Shown: in pieces, positions 9,740 to 48,547 of the stretch
How the letters are laid out: every line of letters begins with the position of its first letter
How positions within the stretch are numbered: the first letter of the stretch is position 1
DNA from: Deltaproteobacteria bacterium
GTDB lineage: Bacteria; Myxococcota_A; Polyangia; JAAYKL01
DNA: 61,939 nucleotides
Reading direction: 5' to 3'
NCBI GenBank assembly: GCA_016935665.1
Contig: JAFGQN010000166.1
Location: 1-61,939 of the forward strand
Position numbers and translations under genes: made by a program
The notes under the pieces: generated by a model
What the model was told of the DNA's origin: nothing
The model's input: only the letters and a program-made list of their open reading frames with translations
The model's database searches: none

Positions 9740-10599
9740 CACCGGTAAATATTGCCGCCTCGATACGGGCGCGATTGCTCAACAAAGCACGCGAAACCAA
9801 CCGGCCCTTTCAGGAGCTGATACAGTACTACGCCCTGGAACGTTTCCTTTTCAGATTCGGTGTATCCAAACACAGAGATCGCTTTGTGCTGAAAGGCGCG
9901 TTGATGCTCCGGGCCTTTAATGCGCCAATGATGCGCCCCACTAAAGATATTGATTTGCTGGGCGCTGCCGACAATAGCATTGAGAATATTGAAACCGTCG
10001 TTCGCGATGTGTGCACCGTTCCGGTTGTCGACGACGGCATCTCATTCAGCCCTGACACTGTCCAGGGCGAACTCATCAAAGAAGAATCCACTTACAGCGG
10101 TGTTCGGGTGAAATTCAAAGGCCAGCTGGAAAATGCAAAGATTCCCATGCAAATCGACGTGGGATTTGGCGACGCTGTGTTTCCACCGCCAGAGGAACGC
10201 GAATATCCCGCGATGCTGGAGTTCGACGCCCCTAAACTGAAAATGTATTCCCTTGAAGCAGTCATCGCCGAGAAGTTTCAAACCATGGTGGAACGTGGCA
10301 CCATGAACAGCCGAATGAAGGACTTTTTTGATATTTACACCCTATCAAAACAGTACGAGTTCAACCGAGACAACCTGGCAGCTGCCATTAAACAGACTTT
10401 TGAAAACAGAAATACCGAACTCACCGCCACCCCGATAGTATTTGAGGATTCATTCGCCCAAAACGAGAATATCGCCAAACAATGGCGGGCGTTTTTAAAA
10501 CGAGGGATGCAAGGAACTGCGCCGGATGATATCGGGGAAGTCATTTGCGGAATACAGCAGTTTATTGCCCCAATACTGTCTTCCGCTACCGCCAAATAA
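9736..10599 (+). CDS. abiEii: AbiEii/AbiGii nucleotidyltransferase toxin
   Basis: A 287-residue toxin of the DNA-polymerase-beta nucleotidyltransferase superfamily. Near the N-terminus it has FVLKGALMLRAFN, then the catalytic RPTKDIDLLG, and further on the IPMQIDVGFGD strand and the YSLEAVIAEKFQTMVERG helix that are conserved in AbiEii. The start is the ATG of the ATGA overlap with the antitoxin, which shortens the longest ORF by 33 codons. Family members such as MenT transfer nucleotides to tRNA and block growth; AbiE gives phage resistance by abortive infection. Together with abiEi it forms a complete two-gene system. Confidence 0.87.
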   Translation: MTPVNIAASIRARLLNKARETNRPFQELIQYYALERFLFRFGVSKHRDRFVLKGALMLRAFNAPMMRPTKDIDLLGAADNSIENIETVVRDVCTVPVVDDGISFSPDTVQGELIKEESTYSGVRVKFKGQLENAKIPMQIDVGFGDAVFPPPEEREYPAMLEFDAPKLKMYSLEAVIAEKFQTMVERGTMNSRMKDFFDIYTLSKQYEFNRDNLAAAIKQTFENRNTELTATPIVFEDSFAQNENIAKQWRAFLKRGMQGTAPDDIGEVICGIQQFIAPILSSATAK

Positions 10600-31362: not shown

Positions 31363-34300
31363 ATGTTTTCAATTAAAAGAACCCTTGGCATCGATGTGGG
31401 TGCTGAAACCATTAAAGTTGTGGAACTTATTAGAGATGAAGCCGGCGAGGTACGCTGGTCGAAGCGCGCGGTGACGCAGCATCATAAGGAGCCCACCAAA
31501 GTGCTTGGCGAAATGCTTTTGGACTTTGACTGGGACGCCATTTCGGGCGCTGCGGTGACGGGCCGTCTGAGTCGTACCATGAACGTGCCGCGCATTCCCA
31601 TTAAGCAATCCCAGATTAAGGGCTTTGAATATTTGTTTGGCGAAAAACCGGCGACGATTGTGTCGATTGGCAGTCACGGGTTTTCGGTTTTGGAAATACG
31701 GGATTCAAATATCGAGATGTTTCGCGAGAATTCCCGATGCTCCCAGGGGACAGGGAACTTTTTGCGGCAACTGGTGGAACGATTTAATATGTCGATTGAG
31801 GACGCCAGTGATTTGTGCGCGCCGGTGAAAAAGCCGGCGCCGCTCTCGGGCCGATGCCCGGTGATTTTGAAAACCGACATGACGCACCTGGCCAATAAGG
31901 GGGAGCCGCAGGAGCGCATTCTGGCGGGCCTGTACGATGCGGTGTGTGAGAATGTGCAGGTATTGATTAAGCCGCGCGTGAGTCCCAAAGAGATGGTGCT
32001 CATTGGTGGGGTTACTCAGGCGGAGCGCATTCGGGCCAATTTTGCGGCATTTGCCCAAAAAAACGACATGACGCTGACGGAAACCGATGGGGATGCGCGT
32101 CTGTTTTTTGAAGCGCTGGGGTGCGCCGCCATTGCCATGGCGCAGGACGCTGCGGTGCCTCAAATGGCAAATCTGTTTAACCCGCCCGAAGACCATGCAC
32201 TGGAGACGCTGCCGCCGCTCTCGAACTACCTGGACAAGGTGACCCGATTGACTGCGGAGGAAAAACCGCCGGTTTCGGATGAGATGCGGTTGATTCTGGG
32301 TTTTGACATTGGCTCGACGGGCTCCAAGGTGGTGGCGGTGGACAGCCGTACGAAACGGGAGGTGTGGGAAGCGTACATTAATACCAATGGCGCACCGGTG
32401 GTGGCGGCGCAGAATCTGATGCAGCAGTTTGTGGACAGTGCTTTTGCAAGGGTGCCGGTGATTGCGGTGGGCGCCACAGGCAGTGGCCGCGAAATTGTGG
32501 GCTCGCTGATGACCACCTGTTATGGCGGCGAGAATGTATTTGTAATGAATGAGATTGCCGCTCATGCGGAAGGCGCTCTGCATTTTGACCGGACGGTGGA
32601 CACGATTTTTGAGATTGGCGGTCAGGACGCCAAGTACATTCGATTGACGCAGGGGCGTGTGGTGGACGCAGCCATGAATGAGGCCTGCAGCGCCGGGACG
32701 GGATCGTTTATTGAGGAGCAGGGCAAGAAGTTTCAGGGAATTGAAAATGTGATTCATTTGGCCGATGAGGCGCTACAGGCAGAAAACGGGGTGTCACTGG
32801 GACAGCACTGCAGCGTGTTTATGGCGGAGATTATAGACGAAGCGGTGGCCTCTCATGTGCCGCAGCGGTCGATTATTGCGGGTATTTACGATTCGATTAT
32901 TCAAAACTATTTAAACAGGGTGAAGGGCAGCCGGTCGGTGGGCAAGGTGATTTTCTGTCAGGGAATGCCGTTTGCGTCGGATGCTCTGGCTGCGTCGGTA
33001 GTGCGTCAGACAGGGGCGCAGGTAATTGTTCCGCCCAATCCGGGAACGGTGGGAGCACTGGGAATTGCGCTGCTCAGTTTGAAAGAGCTGGCGCCCAGTC
33101 TGGAAGACGGTTTGGATTTGCACCGGTTTTTGAATGCGGAAATCATAAAAAAAGATGTATTCACCTGCAAGTCCACCAAGGGGTGTGGCGGCAGTGGCAA
33201 TTACTGTCGCATTGATCGCATTACCACTGTGGTGGAGGGGGTGACGCAGAAGTTCACCTGGGGCGGTGGCTGCTCGCTGTACGACAAAGGGACAGGCAAG
33301 AAGAAATTGCCCGACCTGTCGCCCAATCCATTTAAAGAACGCGAGGAGCTGGTGGCAAAGATTTGTGAACGGTTCGTGAAACGCCCGAACCACCCCACAA
33401 TCGCCATTACGGACCAGTTTGTTTTGAAAAGCATGTTTCCGTACTTTACATCTTTCCTTTACGATTTGGGGTTTGATCTTGAACTGCACATGGCGGCGGA
33501 TCAGGCGACGCTGAAACGAGGGATTGAAGACGCCAATGTGCCTTTCTGTGCGCCCATGCAACAGTACCACGGGGTGGTGACCGAAATGGCAGAGAGCAAG
33601 GCGGACTACCTGTTTTTGCCCATGGTGCGTGGCACACAGCGCATTGGGTCGGAGCCCTGGGCGAGATTGTGCCCGATTGTACAGGGGTCGGCGGACATGC
33701 TGATTTCGGACCTTGGAGAGATTAATGCGAAAATTGTTTCTCCGGTGATTAATATTGGTAAAAAGAACTTTGAATCGGTGCTCTTTTTGGACAGCATGAA
33801 GGCGTTGGCCGAGGAGCTGGGCGTGGCCCACAAAAACTGGCGCGCGGTGGTTCGCAAGGCCGCGGCGGTACAGGAAAAGTTTGACGCGGACTGCATTAAG
33901 GTGGGCGAGCACGCGCTGGCATTTTGCGAGAAAACCGGCGTGACACCGGTGGTGGTGCTGGGACGGACCTACACGATTTACAATGATGTGCTCAATTCCA
34001 ATGTGCCTGCCATTTTGCGGGAACAGGGGGCGATTGCGGTTCCGGTGGATTGCTACCCCATTGGTGAGGAAACGCCGATTTTTCCCAAAGGGTACTGGGG
34101 ATATGGTCAGAAGAACCTGAGAGCGGCCCATCAGATTCGGCGAACGCCCAAACTGTTCAGTCTGTTCTGCAGCAACTATTCGTGCGGGCCGGACAGTTTT
34201 AATGTGCATTTTTACAATTACATTATGGAAGGCAAGCCGGCCGCTATTATTGAGACCGATGGGCACAGTGGCGATGCGGGCACCAAAACGCGAATTGAAG

Positions 34301-35706
34301 CGTTTTTATACTGTGTGCATGAAGACCAGTCATCGGGCAATTCCAATGACGCCGAACCCAAAGATTTGATGGCGCTCCAGAGCGAAACCGATGAGTTGGA
34401 CGACATCATGGGACGAAATGCCACGGTGCTGCTGCCCAGGATGGGCCCTGGTGCGGAAACGCTGGCCGGTGCGCTTCGCGGTCTGGGCATGAAAGCGGAA
34501 TCACTGCCCATGCCCGATGCCGAGGCATTAAGTCTGGGCCGCAGGTACACCTCGGGCAAGGAATGCTTCCCCATGGTGATTACACTGGGCAGCTTTTTAA
34601 AACGGGTGTTGAGCGAGGACGACAAAACTAAAAACTTTACCTTTTTTATGCCCACGGCCAACGGTCCCTGTCGCTTTGGGGCGTACAATGTGCTGGACCG
34701 CATTGTGTTTGAACGTTTGGGGCTGCTGGACCGCGTGAGCATCTGGGCGCCCATTGACGACGACTATTTTGAGACGGTCCCGGATGCATTTGCGGCGGTG
34801 GCATATGCGGCGCTGGCGTCGTCGGATTATTTGCTGGAAGGCCTGTACACGAGTCGTCCGGTGGAGAATCGCAAAGGGGTGGCGACGGAAATATGGAACT
34901 ACTACCGCAAAGAGCTGGAAACCATGCTGGAAGAGTATGTGCGCGGTTCCACACTTTCAATGGGGGTAGCCATCAGCAATATTATGTCGGGGCATTTGTT
35001 TGGGATCATCGATTTGCTCAAACGGGCCGCAAAGGCGTACCGCGACATCATGGTGGACAAAGAAATGCCGGAGGTGCTGGTAACCGGGGAGATGTATGTA
35101 CGCTGCGATCCCTTCAGCAATGATTTTGTCATCGACAATCTGGAAAAGCGAGGCATTCGGTGTAAGTTTGCGCCGTTTAATGAGTGGCTGGAGTACACGG
35201 ATTACCAGGACGGTCAAATCAAACAGGCGTCGGATTGGGTCAGTTCCTATCTGCAGGCCAACATTCAGCACTTACTGTACTACAGCATGGCGGATATCAT
35301 GGGTTGGCACACGCGCACTACGGTGCAGGATGCGCTTGCTGCCTCAAAACCGTACGTTCGCGAACATCTGAGCGGGGAGTCGGTGCTGACCATTGGCGGA
35401 CCGCTCCATGAATGGCGACACAACATGATTGACGGGATGGTGAGTGTGGGACCGCTGGAATGCATGCCCAACAAGATTAGCGAGAACCAGCTGCACCACA
35501 TTGCCGAGAAGGAAGGCATGCCCAGTCTAACGCTGTACCTCAATGGCGATCCGGTAGACCCGGAGATTCTGGACAACTTTGCCTATGAAATTCACGCGCA
35601 GTTCAAGCGACGCAAGGAAGGCAAACCCACACTGGCGCCCCCGCCGGTGTCCCCACGTCCCCGCATCTGGCGCGCCCAAAGCAAGTTCAATCCCAAAGAC
35701 AATTAA
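31363..35706 (+). CDS. Large 2-hydroxyacyl-CoA dehydratase activase-type protein (two BcrAD/BadFG ATPase domains, DUF2229)
   Basis: A 1447-residue cytoplasmic protein. It has two ASKHA-fold ATPase domains in tandem: the first starts LGIDVGAETIKVVELI (6-21), the second LGFDIGSTGSKVVAVD (about 308-323), the latter with IFEIGGQDAKYI and the ACSAGTGSFIEEQ loop. A Cys-rich segment STKGCGGSGNYCRIDR follows, then a DUF2229 / CoA-enzyme activase region (FCAPMQQYHGVVTEMAESKA and beyond) and a HgdB-like end. The family activates radical-forming dehydratases or acts in anaerobic CoA-ester metabolism using an Fe-S cluster, but the role of these giant forms is unclear. No dehydratase subunit gene is next to it. 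It appears monocistronic. Confidence 0.85.
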   Translation: MFSIKRTLGIDVGAETIKVVELIRDEAGEVRWSKRAVTQHHKEPTKVLGEMLLDFDWDAISGAAVTGRLSRTMNVPRIPIKQSQIKGFEYLFGEKPATIVSIGSHGFSVLEIRDSNIEMFRENSRCSQGTGNFLRQLVERFNMSIEDASDLCAPVKKPAPLSGRCPVILKTDMTHLANKGEPQERILAGLYDAVCENVQVLIKPRVSPKEMVLIGGVTQAERIRANFAAFAQKNDMTLTETDGDARLFFEALGCAAIAMAQDAAVPQMANLFNPPEDHALETLPPLSNYLDKVTRLTAEEKPPVSDEMRLILGFDIGSTGSKVVAVDSRTKREVWEAYINTNGAPVVAAQNLMQQFVDSAFARVPVIAVGATGSGREIVGSLMTTCYGGENVFVMNEIAAHAEGALHFDRTVDTIFEIGGQDAKYIRLTQGRVVDAAMNEACSAGTGSFIEEQGKKFQGIENVIHLADEALQAENGVSLGQHCSVFMAEIIDEAVASHVPQRSIIAGIYDSIIQNYLNRVKGSRSVGKVIFCQGMPFASDALAASVVRQTGAQVIVPPNPGTVGALGIALLSLKELAPSLEDGLDLHRFLNAEIIKKDVFTCKSTKGCGGSGNYCRIDRITTVVEGVTQKFTWGGGCSLYDKGTGKKKLPDLSPNPFKEREELVAKICERFVKRPNHPTIAITDQFVLKSMFPYFTSFLYDLGFDLELHMAADQATLKRGIEDANVPFCAPMQQYHGVVTEMAESKADYLFLPMVRGTQRIGSEPWARLCPIVQGSADMLISDLGEINAKIVSPVINIGKKNFESVLFLDSMKALAEELGVAHKNWRAVVRKAAAVQEKFDADCIKVGEHALAFCEKTGVTPVVVLGRTYTIYNDVLNSNVPAILREQGAIAVPVDCYPIGEETPIFPKGYWGYGQKNLRAAHQIRRTPKLFSLFCSNYSCGPDSFNVHFYNYIMEGKPAAIIETDGHSGDAGTKTRIEAFLYCVHEDQSSGNSNDAEPKDLMALQSETDELDDIMGRNATVLLPRMGPGAETLAGALRGLGMKAESLPMPDAEALSLGRRYTSGKECFPMVITLGSFLKRVLSEDDKTKNFTFFMPTANGPCRFGAYNVLDRIVFERLGLLDRVSIWAPIDDDYFETVPDAFAAVAYAALASSDYLLEGLYTSRPVENRKGVATEIWNYYRKELETMLEEYVRGSTLSMGVAISNIMSGHLFGIIDLLKRAAKAYRDIMVDKEMPEVLVTGEMYVRCDPFSNDFVIDNLEKRGIRCKFAPFNEWLEYTDYQDGQIKQASDWVSSYLQANIQHLLYYSMADIMGWHTRTTVQDALAASKPYVREHLSGESVLTIGGPLHEWRHNMIDGMVSVGPLECMPNKISENQLHHIAEKEGMPSLTLYLNGDPVDPEILDNFAYEIHAQFKRRKEGKPTLAPPPVSPRPRIWRAQSKFNPKDN

Positions 35707-35729: not shown

Positions 35730-37169
35730 TTACGCGTCGAATCCGAGGATTTGCGACATGCGGCTGGAGATTTCGCCCACGCTGAAGGGTTTTTGAACGA
35801 AGCCCACATTGTCGTTTTTAAGCAGTTCTGTGGCGCTGTCGTCCTTGCTGTAGCCCGAGCACAGGATGACCGGGATGTCCGGTCGCATCTCTCTGGCTCT
35901 GGCGAACGTGGCCGGTCCGTCCATGATGGGCATGATCATGTCGAGCACGATGAGGTCGATTTCATGGCGGTGTTCCGACAGGATTTGAATGGCCCGCTGA
36001 CCATCCTCTGCCACGTAAACGGCGTAACCGATTTTTTCGAAGATGCGTTTGGCGCTTTTTCGAATCAGCACTTCATCATCCACCAGTAAAACGGTATGGC
36101 GCCGAAGGTCCTTCACCGGAGGCCGACTGCCGCGTATGCCGGGATCTTCGCGCGCTTCATCGAGCGCCGGAAACATTACGTTAAAGGTGGTGCCAATGCC
36201 GGAGTCGCTGTCAATTTCCACACTGCCGGAATGCGCCTGAACAATGGCCCACACCCTGGGTAACCCGAGCCCGGTCCCCTTCCCTTCGGGCTTGGTGGTG
36301 TAAAACGGCTCAAAGGCGCGCCGAAGCGTTTCTTCGCTCATTCCCTCACCTGTGTCAGTCACCTGCAATAGAACGTAAGGGCCCGCCGGTAGAAATTCGG
36401 TTGGCTTTTTCAGCTTTTTTTTGCGCAACGCGACGGTCAGTTCCCCGTCGCCCGACATGGCGTCGATGCCATTAATGCACAGGTTCATTAACACGTTTTT
36501 GATTTCACTGGGATCCCCTTCAATCTGGGGAATGTCGGATTCGAAATCCAATTTGATGCCAAGGGATTTGGGGGAGACGCGCAGCAGCAGTTTGCGAATG
36601 TCTTCGATTTCCTTCACCAGGGAAATGGGGCGCTTGAGGAAATCGCCCTTGCGCGCAAATCCCAGCAGGGAGAGGGTTAAATCGCGACCCCGTCGGCAGG
36701 CATCGAGGATGTCGTTTACGTCCTCGGCGGGGACCTGGCAGTTGGTCATTTCCATGTCCAGCTTCATGGTGGATGCGATACTCATGATGGACGCGAGGAC
36801 GTTGTTCACGTCGTGGGAAATGCCGCCGGCCAGACGTCCCAGCGCTTCGAGTTTGGGCGCATGCCGTTGATCTTCCCTGTGTTTTTCCTTTTCCTCGATG
36901 AGCGCGTCTATTTTTTTCTGCTGTTTTTGGATGTGTTCCGCAAGACGGCGCAGCTCTTCGTCTTTTTCCTGTATCTGCCTTCGCCGAAATCCGATGCCCA
37001 GGGACAGGAACGTTACTCCCAAAACCATGCCCAGCACAAACGCAATACCGTGGGAATACCAGGGAACGCCGTTGGCGGAGTATCGAGTCGAAACGGAGAA
37101 ATGACACATCACGAACACAATCCCGCTAACAACCGAAATAAAAAGGATTTTTCCGACATTCTGTTTCAC
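35730..37169 (-). CDS. Hybrid sensor histidine kinase with C-terminal receiver
   Basis: A 479-residue inner-membrane kinase. Two membrane helices (about 8-26 and 39-60) flank a short periplasmic loop. A coiled coil follows (to about 105), then HisKA with GRLAGGISHDVNNVLASIMS (phospho-acceptor His 119) and HATPase_c with N-box LMNLCINGIDAM, G1 DTGEGMSE and G2 GKGTGLGL. A REC domain ends the protein: VLLVDDEVLIRKSAKRIF, phospho-acceptor Asp in LIVLDMIMPIMDGP, and Lys in VQKPFS. The GTG start at 37169 has GGGAG 9 nt upstream; the longer reading adds 16 residues. The loop is too short for a sensor domain, so the signal may come from the membrane or a partner. It is convergent with the activase gene, and no output regulator is adjacent. 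Confidence 0.9.
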   Translation of the reverse strand: MKQNVGKILFISVVSGIVFVMCHFSVSTRYSANGVPWYSHGIAFVLGMVLGVTFLSLGIGFRRRQIQEKDEELRRLAEHIQKQQKKIDALIEEKEKHREDQRHAPKLEALGRLAGGISHDVNNVLASIMSIASTMKLDMEMTNCQVPAEDVNDILDACRRGRDLTLSLLGFARKGDFLKRPISLVKEIEDIRKLLLRVSPKSLGIKLDFESDIPQIEGDPSEIKNVLMNLCINGIDAMSGDGELTVALRKKKLKKPTEFLPAGPYVLLQVTDTGEGMSEETLRRAFEPFYTTKPEGKGTGLGLPRVWAIVQAHSGSVEIDSDSGIGTTFNVMFPALDEAREDPGIRGSRPPVKDLRRHTVLLVDDEVLIRKSAKRIFEKIGYAVYVAEDGQRAIQILSEHRHEIDLIVLDMIMPIMDGPATFARAREMRPDIPVILCSGYSKDDSATELLKNDNVGFVQKPFSVGEISSRMSQILGFDA

Positions 37170-37333
37170 GTTTCTTGCTCCCTGGTTAAATTTAGCACCG
37201 ACGTGGTAATAATCCAATTACTTCAAATTGCTTTTTCGAGGAAACCAGGTGCGCAAAGGGACGGACTGCCGTACAGGGCTACTGTTGACCGCATTTGACA
37301 AACGCCAAAAGCAGGAAAATCCATGGGAAAAGT

Positions 37334-37816
37334 TCATTTTTGCGGTTTAGAGCGGAAAGGAATTATTTTTCGACGCGTGCGCACCACGAACAAGGCGCCG
37401 GTCCAGAGGCGGCAAAGCAATCCACGAACCCACCTGCGCGAGGCATCGTCACCCAGCGCCAGTTGAGCGACTGATTTTCCAACAAGACTTTCACATCTGT
37501 AGTGCAACCAACGCCAGCGAATCTCCAAAATCTGGAAAACAATCGAATCAGCCGCAACCTCTTCCGTTTGCCATGCGGCATCCCCTTTGAGAATAAAGGA
37601 TTTTCGCCCCCCGCTGTTTTCGAACCCCACGACTCGATGCGCAGTCCCTCCGCCTGTCTCGTCGATAAAACAGACCACGTCGCCGACACAGAGCCTGTCC
37701 ACATTTTCAACCGAGATGACCTTCAGCCGGCTTCCCGGCGGAATAAACGGCAGCATGGATGCCCCTGTAGCTCGCACCCATCTGGCGTTGTCTCCACTGC
37801 TTGCCGCGTTGTTCAT
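37334..37816 (-). CDS. S24/S26-type peptidase of the RiPP operon
   Basis: A 160-residue protein with the S24/S26 signal-peptidase-like fold: RATGASMLPFIPPGSRLKVI (nucleophile Ser in ASM), then DRLCVGDVVCFID, then TAHRVVGFE and SFILKGDAAWQ, where Lys of LKGD is the likely general base. The start is the ATG of the ATGA overlap with the radical SAM gene. The longest ORF would begin 85 codons earlier, inside that gene. A C-terminal basic tail (RTRRKIIPFRSKPQK) is present, and no obvious membrane anchor is seen. Being the last gene of a precursor / kinase / PqqD / radical SAM operon, it may cut the leader of the modified peptide. Confidence 0.75.
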   Translation of the reverse strand: MNNAASSGDNARWVRATGASMLPFIPPGSRLKVISVENVDRLCVGDVVCFIDETGGGTAHRVVGFENSGGRKSFILKGDAAWQTEEVAADSIVFQILEIRWRWLHYRCESLVGKSVAQLALGDDASRRWVRGLLCRLWTGALFVVRTRRKIIPFRSKPQK

Positions 37817-38853
37817 TGAGATTTCATCGAATGTCGCAAGCGGGCCAGCAGACAATCCTGGGAGGATGATTTTTCCACATTTCCATGTTCCAAAAAGGCA
37901 TCGGCGGGACAGCGTCCGCAATAATCGGAGTACGCGCAATGATGACAGGCGGGATTGTCTCCCCAGCGCAATGCATCGAGCTGTTTTTTGACTTCTGAAT
38001 TTTGCCAGATATTGGCGAACGATGATTGTCTGAGGTTTCCAAGTGTTAAAGGAATCATGGTACAGGGCCACACATCTCCGTTGGCACAGAAATGAACGTC
38101 AGTGCTCCCTGCGGAACAGATGCGTTCACTCATGTTTTTTGGGGTTGATTTGATGCTTTTGGCTACCTCGGGATAGCTGAACAGTTTCAGTATTTGATCC
38201 TCACTGGCTCGCAGTTTCGCTGTGTCGCCACCGCCATCCAGCCGGGGGTAAATCCGCACATCAAAATTGGTGACAAACTGCTGTTCATGACACCATTGCA
38301 AAAGCGCGGGAATAACTGAAATATTCCAGTGCATTACCGGGATGGTGACATGCAGCTGGCCGCCGGCCTTTACCATGGTTTGTGCGGCGTTCACTGCATT
38401 GTGAAACGCACCTTGCATTCCAACAAAAGCGTCATGCGCGCTGCTGTCGGTGTGCAACAGAGTGATGGTGAGATTATGCGCCCCACTGCGGTACAATTGT
38501 TCTGTCTGCAAAGGACTGAATAGCGCAGCGGACGACTTGACGGAAACAACGAAATGTCGGGATGCCGCTTCCTGCACAATTTCACAGAGATCTTTGCGAA
38601 GGCCAGGCTCGCCGCCAGTAAACGTAATTTTAATCACGCCGAGGGCCGCCAGTTCATCGAGCAGTTGCACCAGTTCCTGGGTTGTCAGTTCGTCCGCTAC
38701 CAAAGAAGGTCTTTCGCAAAGATAGCAGTGCGTACACGAAAGCGGACAGCGTTCTGTTAAAGAAATCATTGCCGTCAGCGGAAACGAACTTTGCGCGGCC
38801 AGCATGTCCCATATCCGCTCGGAATCGTCCCTGCATGTTTGCCGCAATTCCAC
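37813..38853 (-). CDS. Radical SAM/SPASM peptide-modifying enzyme
   Basis: A 346-residue radical SAM protein. The [4Fe-4S] motif is C36-x3-C40-x2-C43 (ERCPLSCTHCYLC). TFTGGEPGLRKD (78-89) is the SAM-binding GGE motif. The C-terminal SPASM-type Cys cluster includes ICSAGSTDVHFCANGDVWPC, ACHHCAYSDYCGRCP and a final DC. Such enzymes install thioether, C-C or similar cross-links in ribosomal peptides (PqqE, AlbA, ranthipeptide enzymes). The gene starts 4 bp after the pqqD-like stop and overlaps the peptidase gene by 4 bp. The likely substrate is the precursor encoded at 40012-40173. Confidence 0.88.
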   Translation of the reverse strand: MELRQTCRDDSERIWDMLAAQSSFPLTAMISLTERCPLSCTHCYLCERPSLVADELTTQELVQLLDELAALGVIKITFTGGEPGLRKDLCEIVQEAASRHFVVSVKSSAALFSPLQTEQLYRSGAHNLTITLLHTDSSAHDAFVGMQGAFHNAVNAAQTMVKAGGQLHVTIPVMHWNISVIPALLQWCHEQQFVTNFDVRIYPRLDGGGDTAKLRASEDQILKLFSYPEVAKSIKSTPKNMSERICSAGSTDVHFCANGDVWPCTMIPLTLGNLRQSSFANIWQNSEVKKQLDALRWGDNPACHHCAYSDYCGRCPADAFLEHGNVEKSSSQDCLLARLRHSMKSQ

Positions 38854-38856
38854 GTC

Positions 38857-39147
38857 TTATTCTTCTCCTCCCCCGGCGACGGTGGCCAGTTTTCTTTGAA
38901 CCAACACTTCAACGAATTCGAGCACATCCGTCTGTGCCCGAACGACATCCACATCAAACTGCTCGGCGATGCGGCGCGCGATGGATTCCAGCGGCATTCC
39001 ATCACCGTGTTCCCAGATGAAGGCGCCAGTTGCATTCAGTTTTAAAAGGATGTTTTCAGAAACGTCCACCAACACCATCACTTCAGCGATTCTTCGAAAA
39101 GCGATTCTGGGATTCCTTGAAAATATGTGTTTTGATTCAATTGCCAT
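38857..39147 (-). CDS. PqqD-like RiPP recognition element protein
   Basis: A 96-residue PqqD family protein: RNPRIAFRRIAEVMVLVDVS (strands of the winged fold), LKLNATGAFIWEHGDG, then a helix-rich end with EQFDVDVVRAQTDVLEFVEV. PqqD domains bind the leader of a precursor and present it to the radical SAM enzyme. The start at ATG 39147 overlaps the end of the HPr-kinase-like gene by 11 bp; a longer reading adds seven residues. The Gly-Gly-Gly-Glu-Glu end is natural. Confidence 0.88.
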   Translation of the reverse strand: MAIESKHIFSRNPRIAFRRIAEVMVLVDVSENILLKLNATGAFIWEHGDGMPLESIARRIAEQFDVDVVRAQTDVLEFVEVLVQRKLATVAGGGEE

Positions 39148-40006
39148 TGGATGCTCCAGGCGTGTCAATCAAGGGCCAAAAGGTTTCGTTGAGCGGAAAC
39201 CGCAAATGGTACACCGGTATGGTCTCGTAGATGCGTGCGGCCAAATCCATTAGAGACATCATGATTCCGGCGTCTTTGCGAAACACCAGCAGTTCGTTTA
39301 AAAATCGGGACAAAAATTCTTCCACCGGCAACTTTCGCACACTGGCCGCCGCGTTGCTCTTTTCAATGAAACAGATGCCCGAAAGAGGCATTGAGGGGCA
39401 AGGCAGATGCTGCCCCGTTTCATCACTGAACGGTGTTCCCGCCGCAATAACACCGGTGGCTGCCGTTGTGTCATTGTTCAATACAATGCGGTCAATGGAA
39501 AAGACCTGACCACCGTTGTTCAGTTTCTCCACAATCGTGGTTTTGCCCGATTCTGCGGGTCCGGAAAAGGCCCACAATCTGCCATTGCGCACAACACCGG
39601 AGGCGTGCCACATTACCTGATTTCGAAGTACCGCCAAAAGCGCCAGACACGCTCGAATCAGCATGATCATAGGCCAAAGTCCATTTTGTCGAATGGTCAC
39701 TTGACCATGATATGCGCTCGCGGGTTGGGTGGCCGCAAGCTCCACCCAAAAAAACGGATGTTCAATGCGAATTTGCGTCACTTCGTTTTTTGCATTGGTC
39801 TGGTAAAAAAAATCGCCGTCCGTGTCAAAACCGCTGTACCAGTCAGGCATTGGCGTCAATTCGAGTTGAATATCAACAGGTGCAGGAGGGACACTCGCCG
39901 TCTGATGGTGCGGCCACAGCGTTAGCCAATGGGAAGGCAAATCGGTTTTCGATATGATCTGGATATTCATGTGGGCAATTCGCCACAAAATCGAATCAGC
40001 GGCCAT
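39137..40006 (-). CDS. HPr-kinase-like protein of the RiPP operon
   Basis: A protein of about 289 residues. The N-terminal half (IQLELTPMPDWYSGFDTDGD) is beta-rich. The kinase half has the P-loop LWAFSGPAESGKTTIVEKLN and SIDRIVLNNDT, a pattern of HprK-like kinases found in RiPP clusters. In some lasso peptide clusters such kinases phosphorylate the peptide; elsewhere their role is unknown. The ATG at 40006 comes right after the precursor stop. ATG at 39970 is another possibility, and neither has a good ribosome-binding site. The longest ORF (to 40063) overlaps the precursor in another frame. It ends with an 11-bp overlap of the pqqD-like gene. Confidence 0.78.
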   Translation of the reverse strand: MAADSILWRIAHMNIQIISKTDLPSHWLTLWPHHQTASVPPAPVDIQLELTPMPDWYSGFDTDGDFFYQTNAKNEVTQIRIEHPFFWVELAATQPASAYHGQVTIRQNGLWPMIMLIRACLALLAVLRNQVMWHASGVVRNGRLWAFSGPAESGKTTIVEKLNNGGQVFSIDRIVLNNDTTAATGVIAAGTPFSDETGQHLPCPSMPLSGICFIEKSNAAASVRKLPVEEFLSRFLNELLVFRKDAGIMMSLMDLAARIYETIPVYHLRFPLNETFWPLIDTPGASNGN

Positions 40007-40011
40007 GGGGT

Positions 40012-40173
40012 TCAGCCGCTTGGGGGTACGTTCGCAGCCGCGCAGGACGATTTCATAGGGCAACTCAGAGACATCAGCTCAAACGTTTCTTCCGCCACAA
40101 TCGCAGGTTTTTCGTAACTTTTAAGTTGCTGCTGCTTCGCTTCCGGCTGTTCTTTATTTAATTTTACATCCAT
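40012..40173 (-). CDS. RiPP precursor peptide, 53 residues
   Basis: A short gene that begins MDVKLNKEQPEAKQQQLKSY, continues with EKPAIVAEETFELMSLSC, and ends PMKSSCAAANVPPSG. The leader-like stretch (residues 18-37: KSYEKPAIVAEETFELMSLS) has the K-P-x-I-V-x-E-x-x-F-E-x-L pattern frequent in precursors of radical SAM/PqqD systems. The presumed core carries Cys 38 and Cys 44 and many small residues. An in-frame TAA directly precedes the ATG, so the start is fixed; no strong Shine-Dalgarno is seen. It is the first gene of the operon and stops 6 bp before the kinase start. It is too short for ordinary ORF cut-offs. Confidence 0.8.
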   Translation of the reverse strand: MDVKLNKEQPEAKQQQLKSYEKPAIVAEETFELMSLSCPMKSSCAAANVPPSG

Positions 40174-40277: not shown

Positions 40278-43200
40278 TCAATACATGGGTTCCGCGCAGT
40301 GCACGTCCTGGTTGTCCGGAGTGGTTGTACACTTCCAAATGCTCCCCACCTGGCCACAGACATTTCCCGCACCACACGTTCCATCATAAATCGCCACGCC
40401 TCCATCGCAGAGGACAATGCTCACATCATCTGATCGGCAACAGTTAAAGGAACCGGAGCTGACCACGCAAGGGCTGGTTCCGCAAATTCCCTCATAGCAA
40501 CTTTCTCCAGCGCCACAGGTTTCGCCGCAAACAAGATTCCCCCCGCAATGTGTACCACATTCCACCCCCGCTGCAGCACACGATGCGGGGAGCGGATCGC
40601 AGGTGTCTGTGTCGACGTCTGTACCGGTATCGGAGTCCGTGTCGGTGGCGCTGTCTGAATCCGCCATTGGTGTAATAATAACATCGATCTCGTACGATGC
40701 ACGTATGCGCTTGTCCCAGTTTAATATCTCTAAATAATAGGTACCCACATCCGCAGAAGACACAAAGTACGTGATTGACTCAGAGCTGGTGCCAATATCC
40801 TCACTGGCGTCTACCAGAGTTGTCCATGAAGAGTGATCGATGCTGCCCTCCCACAAATACAAATCCAGGTCGGCCGCCGCACCATTGAACGTTATGATTG
40901 CATCAATGGTGGAGGCCTCCGTGATATCAAACTCAAACACATCTGGATCCGACGTGCCAGGAGAAGGGCTGTCCAAATCGAGGCAGGAGACCAATTGAAC
41001 CGCATCAAAGCCATTGGTGATTAAGACCGCTTCCGAATCGTTGTCGTTTTCTTCATAAATGTCATCGGTGCAATACTCACAATAATCCCCTGTAAACCCG
41101 CTATTGCAGCTGCACGATACCACACCGCCCACAATGCTGCATGTTCCTCCGTAATTACAAGACGATGCGGTACATGTTTCATCCACAACACACGTACTGC
41201 CCACCTGATGGTAACCGCTGGCACAAGTCGCACAATAGGTGGCCGGATCCCAGTTTCCGGTACACGTACAGGAAATAGCGTTATTCACAACTGTGCAGGC
41301 GCCACCATTGGCACAACTTGAGGCGGTACAGACAGTGTCCACAACACAGTTGCCGGATTCCATGTGATATCCATTGGCACATACCGAACAGTCATCGCCT
41401 GCAAACCCAGCGTCACATTCGCAACTCACCAGGCCGGTGGTATCATTGCATGCCCCGTGGCTGCTGCAATCCGCACTTGGGTCACTGGTATCCACACAGA
41501 CTTCGTTTGCGACACAATTCCCGGACAAAAAGTCGATGTGAAATCCCACAGCGCACTGGTCGCAGTAGGTTCCGGTGTAACCCGATGCGCAATTGCAGTC
41601 CACCAGCCCGTCCACAATCAGACAACTGCCGTTGCCACTGCAACTGGTTGCCAGACACTGCTCGTTCAACACACAATCGCCGCTGAACAAATGATAGTCT
41701 GTCGCACATGTGTCACAGCTCGTTCCCATCCAACCGGTTTCACAGGTGCATACCGGCACTCCTGAAGAATCGTCACAGGAACCGTTGCCACTGCAATCCG
41801 CGCTGTCGGCGCCATCCTGGTTACAGACGGAATCCGCTACGCAACTGGAACCATTGAAATGATATCCCGAAGCGCAGACTTCACAGGTTATCCCTGTCCA
41901 GCCGGCGTTGCACTCGCAAATCACCAGGCCGGTGGTATCATTGCAGGTTCCATTGCTGTTGCAGTCCGCACTCGGAACAGAGGTGTCGACGCATGCTTCG
42001 TTTGTGACACAATTTCCCGAAACGACGTCAAGATGAAATCCCGTCGCACACAGATCGCAGTAGGTTCCCGTGTAGCCCGCCGTGCAGTCGCAGTCCACCA
42101 GACCGTCCACAATCTGACAACTGCCATTTCCACTGCAGCTGGTTGCCACACACTGCTCATTCAAAACGCAATTACCGCTGAAGAGATGATAGTCTGTCGC
42201 ACACGCATCGCAGTTGGTTCCCGTCCATCCATTTTCACAGATGCATACCGGTGCTCCGGAAGAATCGTCACAGGAACCGTTACCATTGCAATCAGCACTG
42301 TTTGCGCCATCCTGGGTGCATGTAGTATTTATGACACAGCTTGAACCGCTGGGATGATATCCCGCGGCGCAAACGTCACAGGCGGTCCCTGTCCAGCCGA
42401 CGTTGCATTCACACACCACCACTCCGGAATTATCCACACACGTCCCATTTCCACTGCAATCACTGCTGTTGACGCCGTCCTGCACGCACTGGTCATTTTC
42501 CAGACAGACGTCCAGGGTGTAATCCCAATGAAATCCGGATGCGCAACCGGCACAATCCGCTCCGGCGTATCCTCTGTCACATTCACACTCCGCCAACCCC
42601 GAAAAAACATTAACGCCGCAGTCACCGTTGTCGCCACAGTTCATCCCCTGCAACGCTGCAGTATCGCAATCCGGTTGGCATTCTCCATCCCCGTTTTCAT
42701 CCTGGTACCCGGAAACACAAGCGCTGCATGTTGCGCCAGTGTACAGCGCATCGCATTCACAACTCTTCACACCATCGACATAACGGCAAGTGCCATGGTC
42801 GCCGCAGGGATTCAGTACCAAACAGGAATCGTCGTCTTCCACACACCCGATTCCGGCATCCCAGTGATACCCACTCACACACTCTTCACAGAACGTGTCG
42901 GCATCCAGATGTGACCCGAAGGGACACACGCAGAAAACCGTACCGCTGGTATTCTCGAAGCACGTGCCATCGCCACAGGTAGTGGCGGCACATTCTTCGT
43001 CCAAAACACAAACAGTCGCATCACCATCCGGATGATGATATCCATTGGCGCATTCACTGCAATCGCTGAATGCGTCACTGGAATTCTCGTGAGTCCATCC
43101 GGTCGAACAAACGCAAATGGCTGAGCCTTCCACTGTTACCACACACTGGCCGTTATCGCCGCAGGCGCTCGCTGTGCAGGTTTCGTTCTTTAAACAGTTT

Positions 43201-43943
43201 TTGCCATCCACATGATATCCTTCGGGACAGATTTCACACAACTCACCAATCCAATTGTTCCCCGCAGACGTTGTCCCGGATACACTGCAGTCACAGACAA
43301 TGCGCCCCGCTTCCTCTGAACAGCGCGCCGAATTCATGCAGGGGCGCGTACCGTCGAGACAATACACATCTTCCACGCATTCATCGTTTTCTTCGTGAAA
43401 CCCGGGAAGACAGGTAGCACAGTGATTTTTATCGTCCCACTTCCCTTCACAATCACAAACCACGACACCATCATCCACGGAACAGCCACCATCCACTTCA
43501 TGAAATGCGCAGCTGGTTTCCAGACATTTTTCGTCCAGCTCACACTCACCTTTTTCATCGTGCCACCCCGCCGCACACTCATCACAGGTGGTCCCGGCCC
43601 ATCCGGCATCGCATTCGCAAACCGCACCCGTATCTGTGGAAACACATCGCCCGTTTTCACTGCAGGGCGCGACGGCCGTGCAATCCACATCGCTGGTGGA
43701 TTCCGAATCCGACGCGGAATTCGAATCAGTGTACGATTCAGTCTCTGTCTCGGTGACGGTTTCAGTGTCAAGGGCATAAGTGCCGCCATCCGGCATTGAA
43801 TTGCTGCATCCGAAAACGCCCCCCAACAGGGTCCAAAATACCAATGCGAATCCAAATGCGAACCCCCTCGTATACAAACAAGTTGGTTTCATCCAAAGAA
43901 TTGTTGCCGATTTCTGAATAACCGCCGATGTGCTGCTTGCCAT
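40278..43943 (-). CDS. Giant EGF-like-repeat lipoprotein
   Basis: A secreted lipoprotein of about 1221 residues. After the N-terminus comes a signal sequence (FAFGFALVFWTLLGGVFGC) with the lipidated Cys, then a Thr/Ser/Asp/Glu spacer. About twenty EGF-like modules follow (SENGRCVSTDTGAVCECDAG is one). Next is a PPC-like beta domain (DIYEENDNDSEAVLITNGFD) and a short Asp/Thr linker. A last Cys cluster (GTHCGGNLVCGETCGAGESC) completes it. The start at 43943 has GGGAG 7 nt upstream, although an ATG 17 codons later would give a more usual signal peptide. Two 495-bp tandem units are in the EGF region. Surface adhesion or binding is likely; the exact ligand is unknown. Confidence 0.8.
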   Translation of the reverse strand: MASSTSAVIQKSATILWMKPTCLYTRGFAFGFALVFWTLLGGVFGCSNSMPDGGTYALDTETVTETETESYTDSNSASDSESTSDVDCTAVAPCSENGRCVSTDTGAVCECDAGWAGTTCDECAAGWHDEKGECELDEKCLETSCAFHEVDGGCSVDDGVVVCDCEGKWDDKNHCATCLPGFHEENDECVEDVYCLDGTRPCMNSARCSEEAGRIVCDCSVSGTTSAGNNWIGELCEICPEGYHVDGKNCLKNETCTASACGDNGQCVVTVEGSAICVCSTGWTHENSSDAFSDCSECANGYHHPDGDATVCVLDEECAATTCGDGTCFENTSGTVFCVCPFGSHLDADTFCEECVSGYHWDAGIGCVEDDDSCLVLNPCGDHGTCRYVDGVKSCECDALYTGATCSACVSGYQDENGDGECQPDCDTAALQGMNCGDNGDCGVNVFSGLAECECDRGYAGADCAGCASGFHWDYTLDVCLENDQCVQDGVNSSDCSGNGTCVDNSGVVVCECNVGWTGTACDVCAAGYHPSGSSCVINTTCTQDGANSADCNGNGSCDDSSGAPVCICENGWTGTNCDACATDYHLFSGNCVLNEQCVATSCSGNGSCQIVDGLVDCDCTAGYTGTYCDLCATGFHLDVVSGNCVTNEACVDTSVPSADCNSNGTCNDTTGLVICECNAGWTGITCEVCASGYHFNGSSCVADSVCNQDGADSADCSGNGSCDDSSGVPVCTCETGWMGTSCDTCATDYHLFSGDCVLNEQCLATSCSGNGSCLIVDGLVDCNCASGYTGTYCDQCAVGFHIDFLSGNCVANEVCVDTSDPSADCSSHGACNDTTGLVSCECDAGFAGDDCSVCANGYHMESGNCVVDTVCTASSCANGGACTVVNNAISCTCTGNWDPATYCATCASGYHQVGSTCVVDETCTASSCNYGGTCSIVGGVVSCSCNSGFTGDYCEYCTDDIYEENDNDSEAVLITNGFDAVQLVSCLDLDSPSPGTSDPDVFEFDITEASTIDAIITFNGAAADLDLYLWEGSIDHSSWTTLVDASEDIGTSSESITYFVSSADVGTYYLEILNWDKRIRASYEIDVIITPMADSDSATDTDSDTGTDVDTDTCDPLPASCAAAGVECGTHCGGNLVCGETCGAGESCYEGICGTSPCVVSSGSFNCCRSDDVSIVLCDGGVAIYDGTCGAGNVCGQVGSIWKCTTTPDNQDVHCAEPMY
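41325..42314 (-). repeat. Tandem 495-bp duplication inside the EGF-like gene
   Basis: Two adjacent 165-residue units correspond nearly residue for residue: units begin QDGANSADCNGNGSCDDSSG and QDGADSADCSGNGSCDDSSG, and each holds four EGF-like modules in the same order. The period was measured from the shared GCGCCATCCTGG at 41809 and 42304. It keeps the reading frame. Confidence 0.8.
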
Positions 43944-44209: not shown

Positions 44210-44623
44210 CTACTTTTGAGCGACTTCCAATTGGGCCTGCAACCAGGTAATGCCGGCTTCCAGCGTGGTTCGTGCGGGACTATCGTCTTCCAATCCGGAA
44301 AACTCTTCCTGTAAGCTGCCCAGTTCTTTTTCCAGATCCTCAATCTCTGCCTGAATGGATTCTTTTGAAACACAGTGCTGTGTCATCACATTCACGTGAT
44401 TAGCACTGCTTTCGAAAAATCCAATGTCCACGGCGTACACATTTGGTTCACCGTCCATCTCGAACATCAAACGCCCTGGTTTTAAAGACGCCAGAACGGG
44501 TCTGTGCTCAGGCAGCACACAAAATTCGCCCAGCTCCGAAGACGTGGTAATCGAACTGACCATCTGTTCGACCACAGGTCCCGAAGGAGTCACCACACGC
44601 AGTTTTATTAAATCATCGCTCAT
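44210..44623 (-). CDS. atpC: ATP synthase epsilon subunit
   Basis: A 137-residue F1 epsilon subunit. The N-terminal beta-barrel has LRVVTPSGPVVEQMVSSITT and GEFCVLPEHRPVLASLKPG, the family signature. The C-terminal helical hairpin (from about residue 90) is present. It is last in the operon, 5 bp after atpD. Regulatory inhibition through the C-terminal helices is known for the family. Length is normal. Confidence 0.95.
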   Translation of the reverse strand: MSDDLIKLRVVTPSGPVVEQMVSSITTSSELGEFCVLPEHRPVLASLKPGRLMFEMDGEPNVYAVDIGFFESSANHVNVMTQHCVSKESIQAEIEDLEKELGSLQEEFSGLEDDSPARTTLEAGITWLQAQLEVAQK

Positions 44624-44628
44624 TGAAA

Positions 44629-46092
<1,464 letters not shown>

Positions 46093-46962
46093 TTAGTCGT
46101 TGAGCGCCTCAGCGCCGCCCACGATATCCATCAATTCGCTGGTAATTGCAGACTGTCTGGCGCGGTTGTAAACCAGAGTCAGACTGTCAATCATATCCTG
46201 CGCGTTATTAGTTGCGGTTTCCATGGCGCTCATTCGCGCCGCGTGTTCTGCCGCTGCCGATTCCAGCAGTGCGCTAAACACTTTTACTTCCACGTACCGT
46301 GGCAACAAAGCGGCAAGCAGTTCACTCTCACTGGGCTCAAAAATAAATACAGGGGAAGCGAGTTCGCCGGCTTCAACCTTTTTCTTCTCCGGCAATGCAA
46401 CTGGCAGCAATTGAACCAGCGTTGGCACCTGGGAAACCACCGAAACCATTTCGTTGTACGCCAGATAAATCATGTCGTAATCGCCATTTTCGTACAGCTT
46501 CGCCAGTTCGGCGGCAATTGACGCAGCTTTGTCGTAATCCAAATCATCGAAGACCTCGTCGTAATACGTTTGAATCTTCACCATGCGGTGTTCGAAGTAT
46601 CCTTTCGCCTTTCGGCCCACTACCGACAGATCCGTATGGACTCGCCCCGAATTCAACTCCGCCGCCACCAGACGGTTTAAATTGCTGTTAAATCCACCAC
46701 ACAGCCCTCGATCGGATGAGATCACCAAAACCAGTGCCTTCTCGGGCTCGCGCCGAATCAAAAGCGAATGCGCATCTTCTTCGGCGTCCGACGCCACTTC
46801 CGCAAGCACTTCAGACATCAAGCGGGAATAATCTCTGAAACTCTCGGCATGTTCCTGTGCTTTACGAAGCTTGGCCGCTGCCACCATCTTCATGGCGCGC
46901 GTGATTTTCTGTGTTCCGTGAACACTGGCGATTCGCCGACGTATCTCTTTAAGATTTGCCAT
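46093..46962 (-). CDS. atpG: ATP synthase gamma subunit
   Basis: A 289-residue central-stalk subunit. The N-terminal helix (MANLKEIRRRIASVHGTQKI) and the C-terminal helix (MIDSLTLVYNRARQSAITSE) form the coiled-coil rotor, and the Rossmann-like middle includes VISSDRGLCGGFNSNL. Normal length, between atpA and atpD as expected. Confidence 0.97.
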   Translation of the reverse strand: MANLKEIRRRIASVHGTQKITRAMKMVAAAKLRKAQEHAESFRDYSRLMSEVLAEVASDAEEDAHSLLIRREPEKALVLVISSDRGLCGGFNSNLNRLVAAELNSGRVHTDLSVVGRKAKGYFEHRMVKIQTYYDEVFDDLDYDKAASIAAELAKLYENGDYDMIYLAYNEMVSVVSQVPTLVQLLPVALPEKKKVEAGELASPVFIFEPSESELLAALLPRYVEVKVFSALLESAAAEHAARMSAMETATNNAQDMIDSLTLVYNRARQSAITSELMDIVGGAEALND

Positions 46963-46978
46963 AGCGTATTATTTCCGT

Positions 46979-48547
<1,569 letters not shown>

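Follow-up and report, generated by a model that had tools for sequence, protein, structure and literature searches.

Among kinase-bearing lasso peptide clusters, most of the HprK-like kinases studied target the C-terminal Ser of the linear precursor, and the rest of the sequence matters little (PMC8498205). The Bradymonas kinase BsfK acts on Ser3 and is sped by its recognition element, its precursor having a leader with the conserved YxxPxL motif, and the bsf lasso cluster is bordered by an FG-GAP protein (PMC10368454). Here, we describe an operon in which a leader of this type, a PqqD-type recognition element, and an HprK-like kinase are found together with a radical S-adenosylmethionine (SAM)/SPASM enzyme and an S26-type peptidase. 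The operon lies on the minus strand at positions 37334–40173 of contig JAFGQN010000166.1 from a Deltaproteobacteria bacterium, of which we analyzed a stretch of 61,939 nucleotides (the window). With a probability of roughly 70%, we consider it to represent an undescribed family of ribosomally synthesized and posttranslationally modified peptides (RiPPs) that combines a lasso-like leader and kinase logic with radical SAM chemistry and is spread across the phylum.

A Gene Set Conserved across the Phylum

The genes follow the order precursor of 53 residues, HprK-like kinase, PqqD, radical SAM/SPASM enzyme, and S26-type peptidase. All five open reading frames (ORFs) named in the initial annotation were confirmed, including the short precursor with its two Cys. 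That annotation took the five genes as the whole unit; they are indeed conserved together, but the conserved unit exceeds 37334–40173 and includes a lipoprotein gene that had been missed. The features are the following:

40012–40173, minus strand: RiPP precursor, 53 residues, identified from homologs directly 5′ of the kinase in loci L059, L061–L067, and L069, from profile matches and from purifying selection
40060–40062, minus strand: codon of Cys38, 18 residues after Tyr20; predicted leader/core boundary (Ser37/Cys38) and predicted radical SAM target
40018–40020, minus strand: codon of Ser52, next to the C terminus; predicted phosphorylation site, from the Ser/Thr rule of the tail and the lasso kinase precedent (PMC8498205)
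39137–40006, minus strand: HprK-like peptide kinase, 289 residues, with Walker A GPAESGKTT, His134, and Asp172; from conservation, the AlphaFold2 fold, and a weak TIGR04355 match
38857–39147, minus strand: PqqD-type RiPP recognition element (PF05402, 2.8e-15; best NCBIfam model lasso_PqqD_Strm, 2.3e-8, below cutoff)
37813–38853, minus strand: radical SAM/SPASM maturase, 346 residues, with CxxxCxxC at 36–43 (PF04055, PF13186)
37334–37816, minus strand: S26-type peptidase, 160 residues, with a GASMLP (Ser) and HRVVG (His) dyad; predicted leader peptidase (TIGR02228, ~1e-7, below cutoff)
40278–43892, minus strand: large secreted lipoprotein with lipobox GVFGC, EGF-like repeats (EGF models), and a C terminus rich in Cys; ATG 43892 is used as its start

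A search with the radical SAM enzyme found relatives of 34–41% identity in the same family and class, and their neighborhoods contained a homologous kinase, PqqD, radical SAM enzyme, and peptidase, with a short two-Cys ORF carrying the same leader directly before the kinase. A profile built from 16 precursors found beside related enzymes matched in 71 of the 318 genomes of the class and in 51 of the 379 genomes of a phylum sample, and most of the matches adjoined the same enzymes. We fetched 80 neighborhoods and computed the statistics of precursor anatomy from 74 sequences; a same-strand kinase was found near 67 of the 74 precursors and a radical SAM enzyme likewise near 67. The genomes are drafts, and the 28 loci with all four enzymes recognized give a lower bound for complete sets, since contig ends cut several clusters. 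Scans of genome contigs with single radical SAM proteins returned none and then one locus, JAQTNF010000002.1 (Deltaproteobacteria bacterium isolate STA_58).

The gene set is conserved in several arrangements, in the window's class as well as in other classes of the phylum. The order lipoprotein–precursor–kinase–PqqD–radical SAM–peptidase is shared by the window and its family and, without a recognized PqqD, occurs also in another class. The other arrangements are kinase–PqqD–radical SAM–lipoprotein–precursor–peptidase, peptidase–kinase–PqqD–radical SAM–precursor, and precursor–kinase–PqqD–radical SAM. The conserved leader, Cys register, and neighbors for which the initial annotation had suggested a search were thus seen in dozens of genomes. 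It had also raised the possibility that the precursor frame is unconserved; this is contradicted by the homologous precursors beside related enzymes and by purifying selection, as substitutions were mostly synonymous in close precursor pairs, every one of which had a higher synonymous than nonsynonymous divergence (pS > pN).

Adjacent genes of the operon overlap by, or are separated by, only a few bases, and their translation is therefore probably coupled. The best start sites are at 40173 for the precursor, ATG 39147 for PqqD, and GTG 38853 for the radical SAM enzyme. For the kinase, ATG 40006, a few bases past the precursor stop, is the most likely start, and TTG 40063, which overlaps the precursor, is disfavored; the peptidase is best started at ATG 37816, giving a 4-nucleotide ATGA overlap with the radical SAM stop, and the upstream GTG 38071 is disfavored. 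No terminator-like site was found on the minus strand between the lipoprotein gene, ending at 40278, and the precursor.

The window's genome contains a second, divergent operon (locus L077, G000:C103:8556–11578) with a PqqD, a radical SAM enzyme (26% identical), a kinase, and an S26-type peptidase; its precursor-like ORF at 10056–10268 has the tail CRASGIVGPFGMSCAGPCSGGS, three Cys, and a terminal Ser. Loci L067 and L068 (G359:C289) are two such operons that share a contig and are separated by ~27 kb; in the latter, no kinase was recognized, but the precursor has a terminal Ser.

Precursor Anatomy

The window precursor has the sequence MDVKLNKEQPEAKQQQLKSYEKPAIVAEETFELMSLSCPMKSSCAAANVPPSG, with leader residues Tyr20-x-x-Pro23-x-Ile25 and Phe31-Glu32, the first conserved Cys (Cys1) at Cys38, the second (Cys2) at Cys44, and Ser52 penultimate in the tail PPSG. 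The leader motif is Y/W-x-x-P-x-[IVL], and all 74 precursors have [YWF]xxP with a Cys at a defined distance after it. The initial annotation was right that the leader is conserved, but its pattern K-P-x-I-V-x-E-x-x-F-E is better written as YxxPx[IVL]...FE...L-x-C. Cys1 follows the Tyr by 18 residues in 61 of the 74 sequences and by 19 in six, and exactly two Cys are found from Cys1 onward in 61. The residues before Cys1 are biased as well: Ala or Ser is found at −1 in 55 and at −3 in 54 of the precursors, an AxA-like pattern as in signal-peptidase sites, while Leu at −2 and Glu at −6 are each found in 53. The core usually has 13–22 residues and is abundant in Pro, Gly, Ala, and Asn. Within it, the distance from Cys1 to the next Cys ranges from 2 to 17 residues, and we saw no conserved acceptor residue among the 74 precursors.

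Of the 74 precursors, 57 end in Ser and 60 in Ser or Thr, and Ser or Thr is found within the last two residues in 70, in comparison with a frequency of 12.4% inside the core (3e-41 for the last residue, binomial test, descriptive only as relatedness is ignored). The rule spans many families and strongly reinforces the phosphorylation that had been proposed tentatively. None of the precursors tested matched an NCBIfam or Pfam model, and because of the missing NCBIfam match, the family looks overlooked, though it is present in about one-fifth of the class's sampled genomes. A reading of the precursor motif L-x-[AS]-C as a lipobox was ruled out, as there is no signal peptide and the Leu is misplaced.

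Kinase and Recognition Element

Taken singly, the kinase falls below the Pfam cutoffs and was placed by profiles and a structure model. Its AlphaFold2 model (mean predicted local distance difference test score, pLDDT, of 91.5) matches PEPCK and HprK/P and thus has the PEPCK/HprK fold. His134, Gly154, Lys155, and Thr157 are invariant in 39 homologs and Asp172 nearly so, and the positions studied in published kinases (His, Gly, Lys, Ser/Thr, and the last Asp, as Asp or Glu) are kept in the operon kinases. In a tree whose only lasso rows were seven kinases from lasso clusters of the phylum, the operon kinases split from these with 96/94 support. Given the Ser/Thr rule of the tail and the lasso kinase precedent, phosphorylation of the C-terminal Ser by the HprK-like kinase is the best supported step of the pathway and probably takes place.

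Some observations around the kinase and PqqD concern single groups of loci. Two tandem kinases occur within one operon in L123 and L142. Outside the class, many operons have the kinase and radical SAM genes adjacent but no recognized PqqD (L150–L152, L154, L155, L157, L158, L160, and others); a divergent or fused recognition element, or one encoded elsewhere, may account for this. A PF14907 nucleotidyltransferase is found near the operon in L120, L121, L145, L146, and L149, confirmed by Pfam in L120, L145, and L146, hinting, by analogy with phosphoglycosylated lasso clusters, that a group could be added onto the phosphoserine.

Radical SAM Enzyme and Peptidase

The identities of the radical SAM/SPASM enzyme and PqqD, as given in the initial annotation, are clear from PF04055, PF13186, and PF05402. 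The SPASM Cys of the enzyme are at 246, 264, 303, 306, 312, 315, and 334, and all ten Cys are invariant in 12 homologs. No NCBIfam model reached its cutoff for it. In a profile comparison with solved structures, SkfB came first (2.9e-37) and PqqE second (9.5e-31), followed by others. Cys1, here Cys38, is the likeliest target of the enzyme, because no other core residue keeps a constant distance to the leader motif, and a cross-linked product, as put forward in the initial annotation, is plausible.

The peptidase has a dyad of the SipW/Sec11 kind, with the His invariant and the Ser, sometimes Cys, conserved among homologs. Below Pfam cutoffs when taken singly, it matched SEC11A as a profile (E = 1.1e-9), and the top Foldseek matches of its model (pLDDT 89.9) were signal peptidases, in a weak list with an E of only 2.8e-3. 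The protein begins MNNAASSGDNARWVRATGASM, with no hydrophobic stretch and no N-terminal membrane helix, and it probably acts in the cytosol for this reason; cytosolic action is known from the maturation protease of nickel superoxide dismutase. The Ala or Ser at −3 and −1 before Cys1 would fit a signal-peptidase-like specificity.

A Possible Lipoprotein Partner

The lipoprotein gene is directly upstream of the precursor and on the same strand in ~50 of the 74 loci, mostly with 1,000–1,700 codons. An ORF of at least 400 residues precedes the precursor in 56 loci, five of these being a radical SAM gene or a chance frame. It is the sole other neighbor family that recurs widely (39 loci). Most lipoproteins scanned contain FG-GAP repeats, and several of the window's family, the window included, contain EGF-like repeats. 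When the gene order shifts, the precursor moves together with the lipoprotein, and this favors a joint function over a mere shared location. Judging from this neighborhood, the product may act at this large surface lipoprotein or together with it, and such a recurring neighbor is a rare clue to the purpose of a RiPP. The idea of an FG-GAP neighbor common to the lasso clusters of the phylum is not supported beyond the single published case, as only 4 of the 20 lasso loci had an FG-GAP-like ORF nearby, and on the opposite strand.

Proposed Pathway and Alternatives

In the pathway that we propose, PqqD would bind the YxxPx[IVL] leader and present the precursor, the HprK-like kinase would phosphorylate the terminal or penultimate Ser (Ser52), and the radical SAM/SPASM enzyme would modify the core. 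Cys38 is the most likely site, and our first guess for the product is a thioether or another Cys-centered macrocycle; alternatively, or at a later step, Cys38 and Cys44 could form a disulfide. Next, the soluble S26-type Ser/His peptidase would cut the leader off before Cys38 and release a core of the form C-x(n)-C-x(m)-pSer (pSer, phosphoserine) with ~13–22 residues, which could act with or at the surface lipoprotein whose gene immediately precedes the precursor. Two of these reactions become directly testable through the rules for the C-terminal Ser and Cys1. More tentatively, and with odds somewhat against it, the peptides could form a new RiPP class in which a radical SAM-modified, Cys-centered core with a C-terminal phosphoserine is paired with a giant lipoprotein having an integrin-like FG-GAP propeller or an EGF stalk, for example as a bound ligand or prosthetic peptide tuning adhesion or cell contact across the phylum.

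Several observations weigh against this pathway. The divergent precursors of L160, L168, and L169 lack a terminal Ser or Thr (they end in QGALE, CAEL, and YGG), and their kinases nevertheless retain the Lys of the P-loop as well as the acidic residue; these precursors may mark a different phosphorylation site; the L141 precursor ends in SQPQ. BsfK targets a Ser of the core, and the kinase family is therefore not tied to the C-terminal Ser (PMC10368454). The operons of L068 and L143, with no kinase at hand, still end in Ser, a comparison blurred by truncated contigs or kinases encoded elsewhere. PqqD went unrecognized beside many operons outside the class, such as L150–L152, L154, and L155; the A-L-[AS]-C motif may serve as a signal for the radical SAM enzyme instead of the peptidase; and no recurring exporter gene was found among the neighbors. 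We observe the gene set, its conservation, the motif positions, purifying selection, and predicted folds; the reactions and the sequence in which they occur, the cleavage site, and the lipoprotein link are all inferred from these.

The variable spacing of the two Cys and the lack of a conserved acceptor would also suit a flexible, plain disulfide, with the radical SAM enzyme acting elsewhere by epimerization, C–C cross-linking, or desaturation and the tail still being phosphorylated. The fixed distance of Cys1 from the leader motif in 61 of the 74 precursors, as expected for an enzyme target, and the sactipeptide enzyme SkfB as the closest solved relative by profile both speak for a Cys-directed enzyme, and we regard this alternative as unlikely, though the most serious of those considered. 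The enzymes could instead act mainly on the lipoprotein, with the small ORF being an adaptor or joined to it, as the position of this gene directly 5′ of the precursor would allow; L061, L120, L121, L127, and L146 lack the lipoprotein nearby and yet keep the precursor, kinase, PqqD, and radical SAM enzyme, and the lipoprotein has EGF repeats in some loci and FG-GAP repeats in others with the enzymes remaining the same, which makes such a role improbable.

Slightly less probable still is a cofactor precursor similar to PqqA or mycofactocin, trimmed to a small redox cofactor. A PqqD with a SPASM radical SAM enzyme is the arrangement of pyrroloquinoline quinone synthesis, and PqqE was the second-best solved relative. 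Cofactor precursors, however, have an invariant core, whereas the present cores vary except for Cys1, Cys2, and the terminal Ser, and we know of no role in such pathways for a kinase acting on the C-terminal residue. We give the least credence to a degenerate or dispersed lasso system with its cyclase elsewhere in the genome, despite the lasso-like YxxPx[IVL] leader, the PqqD closest to a lasso PqqD model, and the kinase for a C-terminal Ser: a scan of the window's genome and of two sampled genomes from the same family found no match to the B2 protein domain PF13471 (Transglut_core3), each of the well-covered clusters contains a radical SAM enzyme in its place, the position −2 before the predicted core is Leu and not Thr, and the kinases separate from those of lasso clusters of the phylum, as far as seven rows can tell.

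Genomic Context

The operon and its lipoprotein gene lie directly 3′ of ATP synthase genes (atpC, atpD, and atpA; window 44213–48538, minus strand). The operon is likewise flanked by homologs of the atpC type in L063, L066, and L069 and by ATP synthase genes in L061; given this shared flank, the island seems to have been inherited in place within the window's family. Just downstream of the operon is a hybrid histidine kinase with a receiver domain (35730–37217, minus strand), which we did not see recurring in relatives, followed by a 1,447-residue protein (31363–35706, plus strand) whose sequence suggests a fused 2-hydroxyacyl-CoA dehydratase activase/component.

Comparison with Known Systems

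In the open-access literature, which misses many chemistry journals, we found no paper on an operon with an HprK-like kinase, PqqD, and radical SAM enzyme, on a YxxPxL leader with a radical SAM enzyme, or using the SynChlorMet name; nor did we find a described peptide class with this combination, in line with the initial annotation, which recognized none with exactly this gene order. The nearest named system is the SynChlorMet cassette (TIGR04248–TIGR04251: ScmD, ScmC, ScmE, and ScmF), to our knowledge uncharacterized, which shares an HprK-related protein, a PqqD-like protein, and a SPASM radical SAM enzyme, but where two radical SAM enzymes are expected and the operon has one. By sequence models, it is missed by wide margins, with scores of at most 39 of the 125 bits required for ScmC in the genomes searched, 23 of 100 for ScmD, and 91 of 400 for ScmE. 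The GeoRSP system (TIGR04302, TIGR04303) has the PqqD and radical SAM/SPASM pair in common, with its models under cutoff (29 of 100 and 107 of 400 bits). Sactipeptides, ranthipeptides, and other SPASM RiPPs (SkfB, PqqE) share the SPASM architecture, PqqD-type recognition, and a Cys-containing core; the operon differs from them in its kinase, the C-terminal Ser rule, and the combination of one fixed and one drifting Cys, and no curated precursor or enzyme family reached its cutoff here.

The likeness to the kinase-bearing lasso clusters (paeninodin, ThcoK/SyanK, pseudomycoidin, and Bradymonas bsf) lies in the YxxPxL-type leader, the discrete PqqD-like recognition element, and the HprK-like kinase, as well as in the C-terminal Ser, bsf with its Ser3 excepted. 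A nucleotidyltransferase sometimes occurs in both; in pseudomycoidin, one of the PF14907 type is reported to decorate the phosphoserine, and PF14907 adjoins some of the operons here. No Asn-synthetase-like lasso cyclase was found among the operon proteins scanned, the cyclase search being confined to these proteins, and if the core starts at Cys1, as we predict, the Thr (or Ile or Val) of lasso precursors at −2 is replaced by Leu in 53 of the 74. In place of the B2 protease and lasso cyclase, the operon has a radical SAM/SPASM enzyme and an S26-type peptidase, along with two conserved Cys and no recurring exporter. If our reading is correct, phosphorylation of a C-terminal Ser extends beyond lasso peptides, and the trio of leader, recognition element, and kinase is a portable module, one able to combine with radical SAM chemistry.

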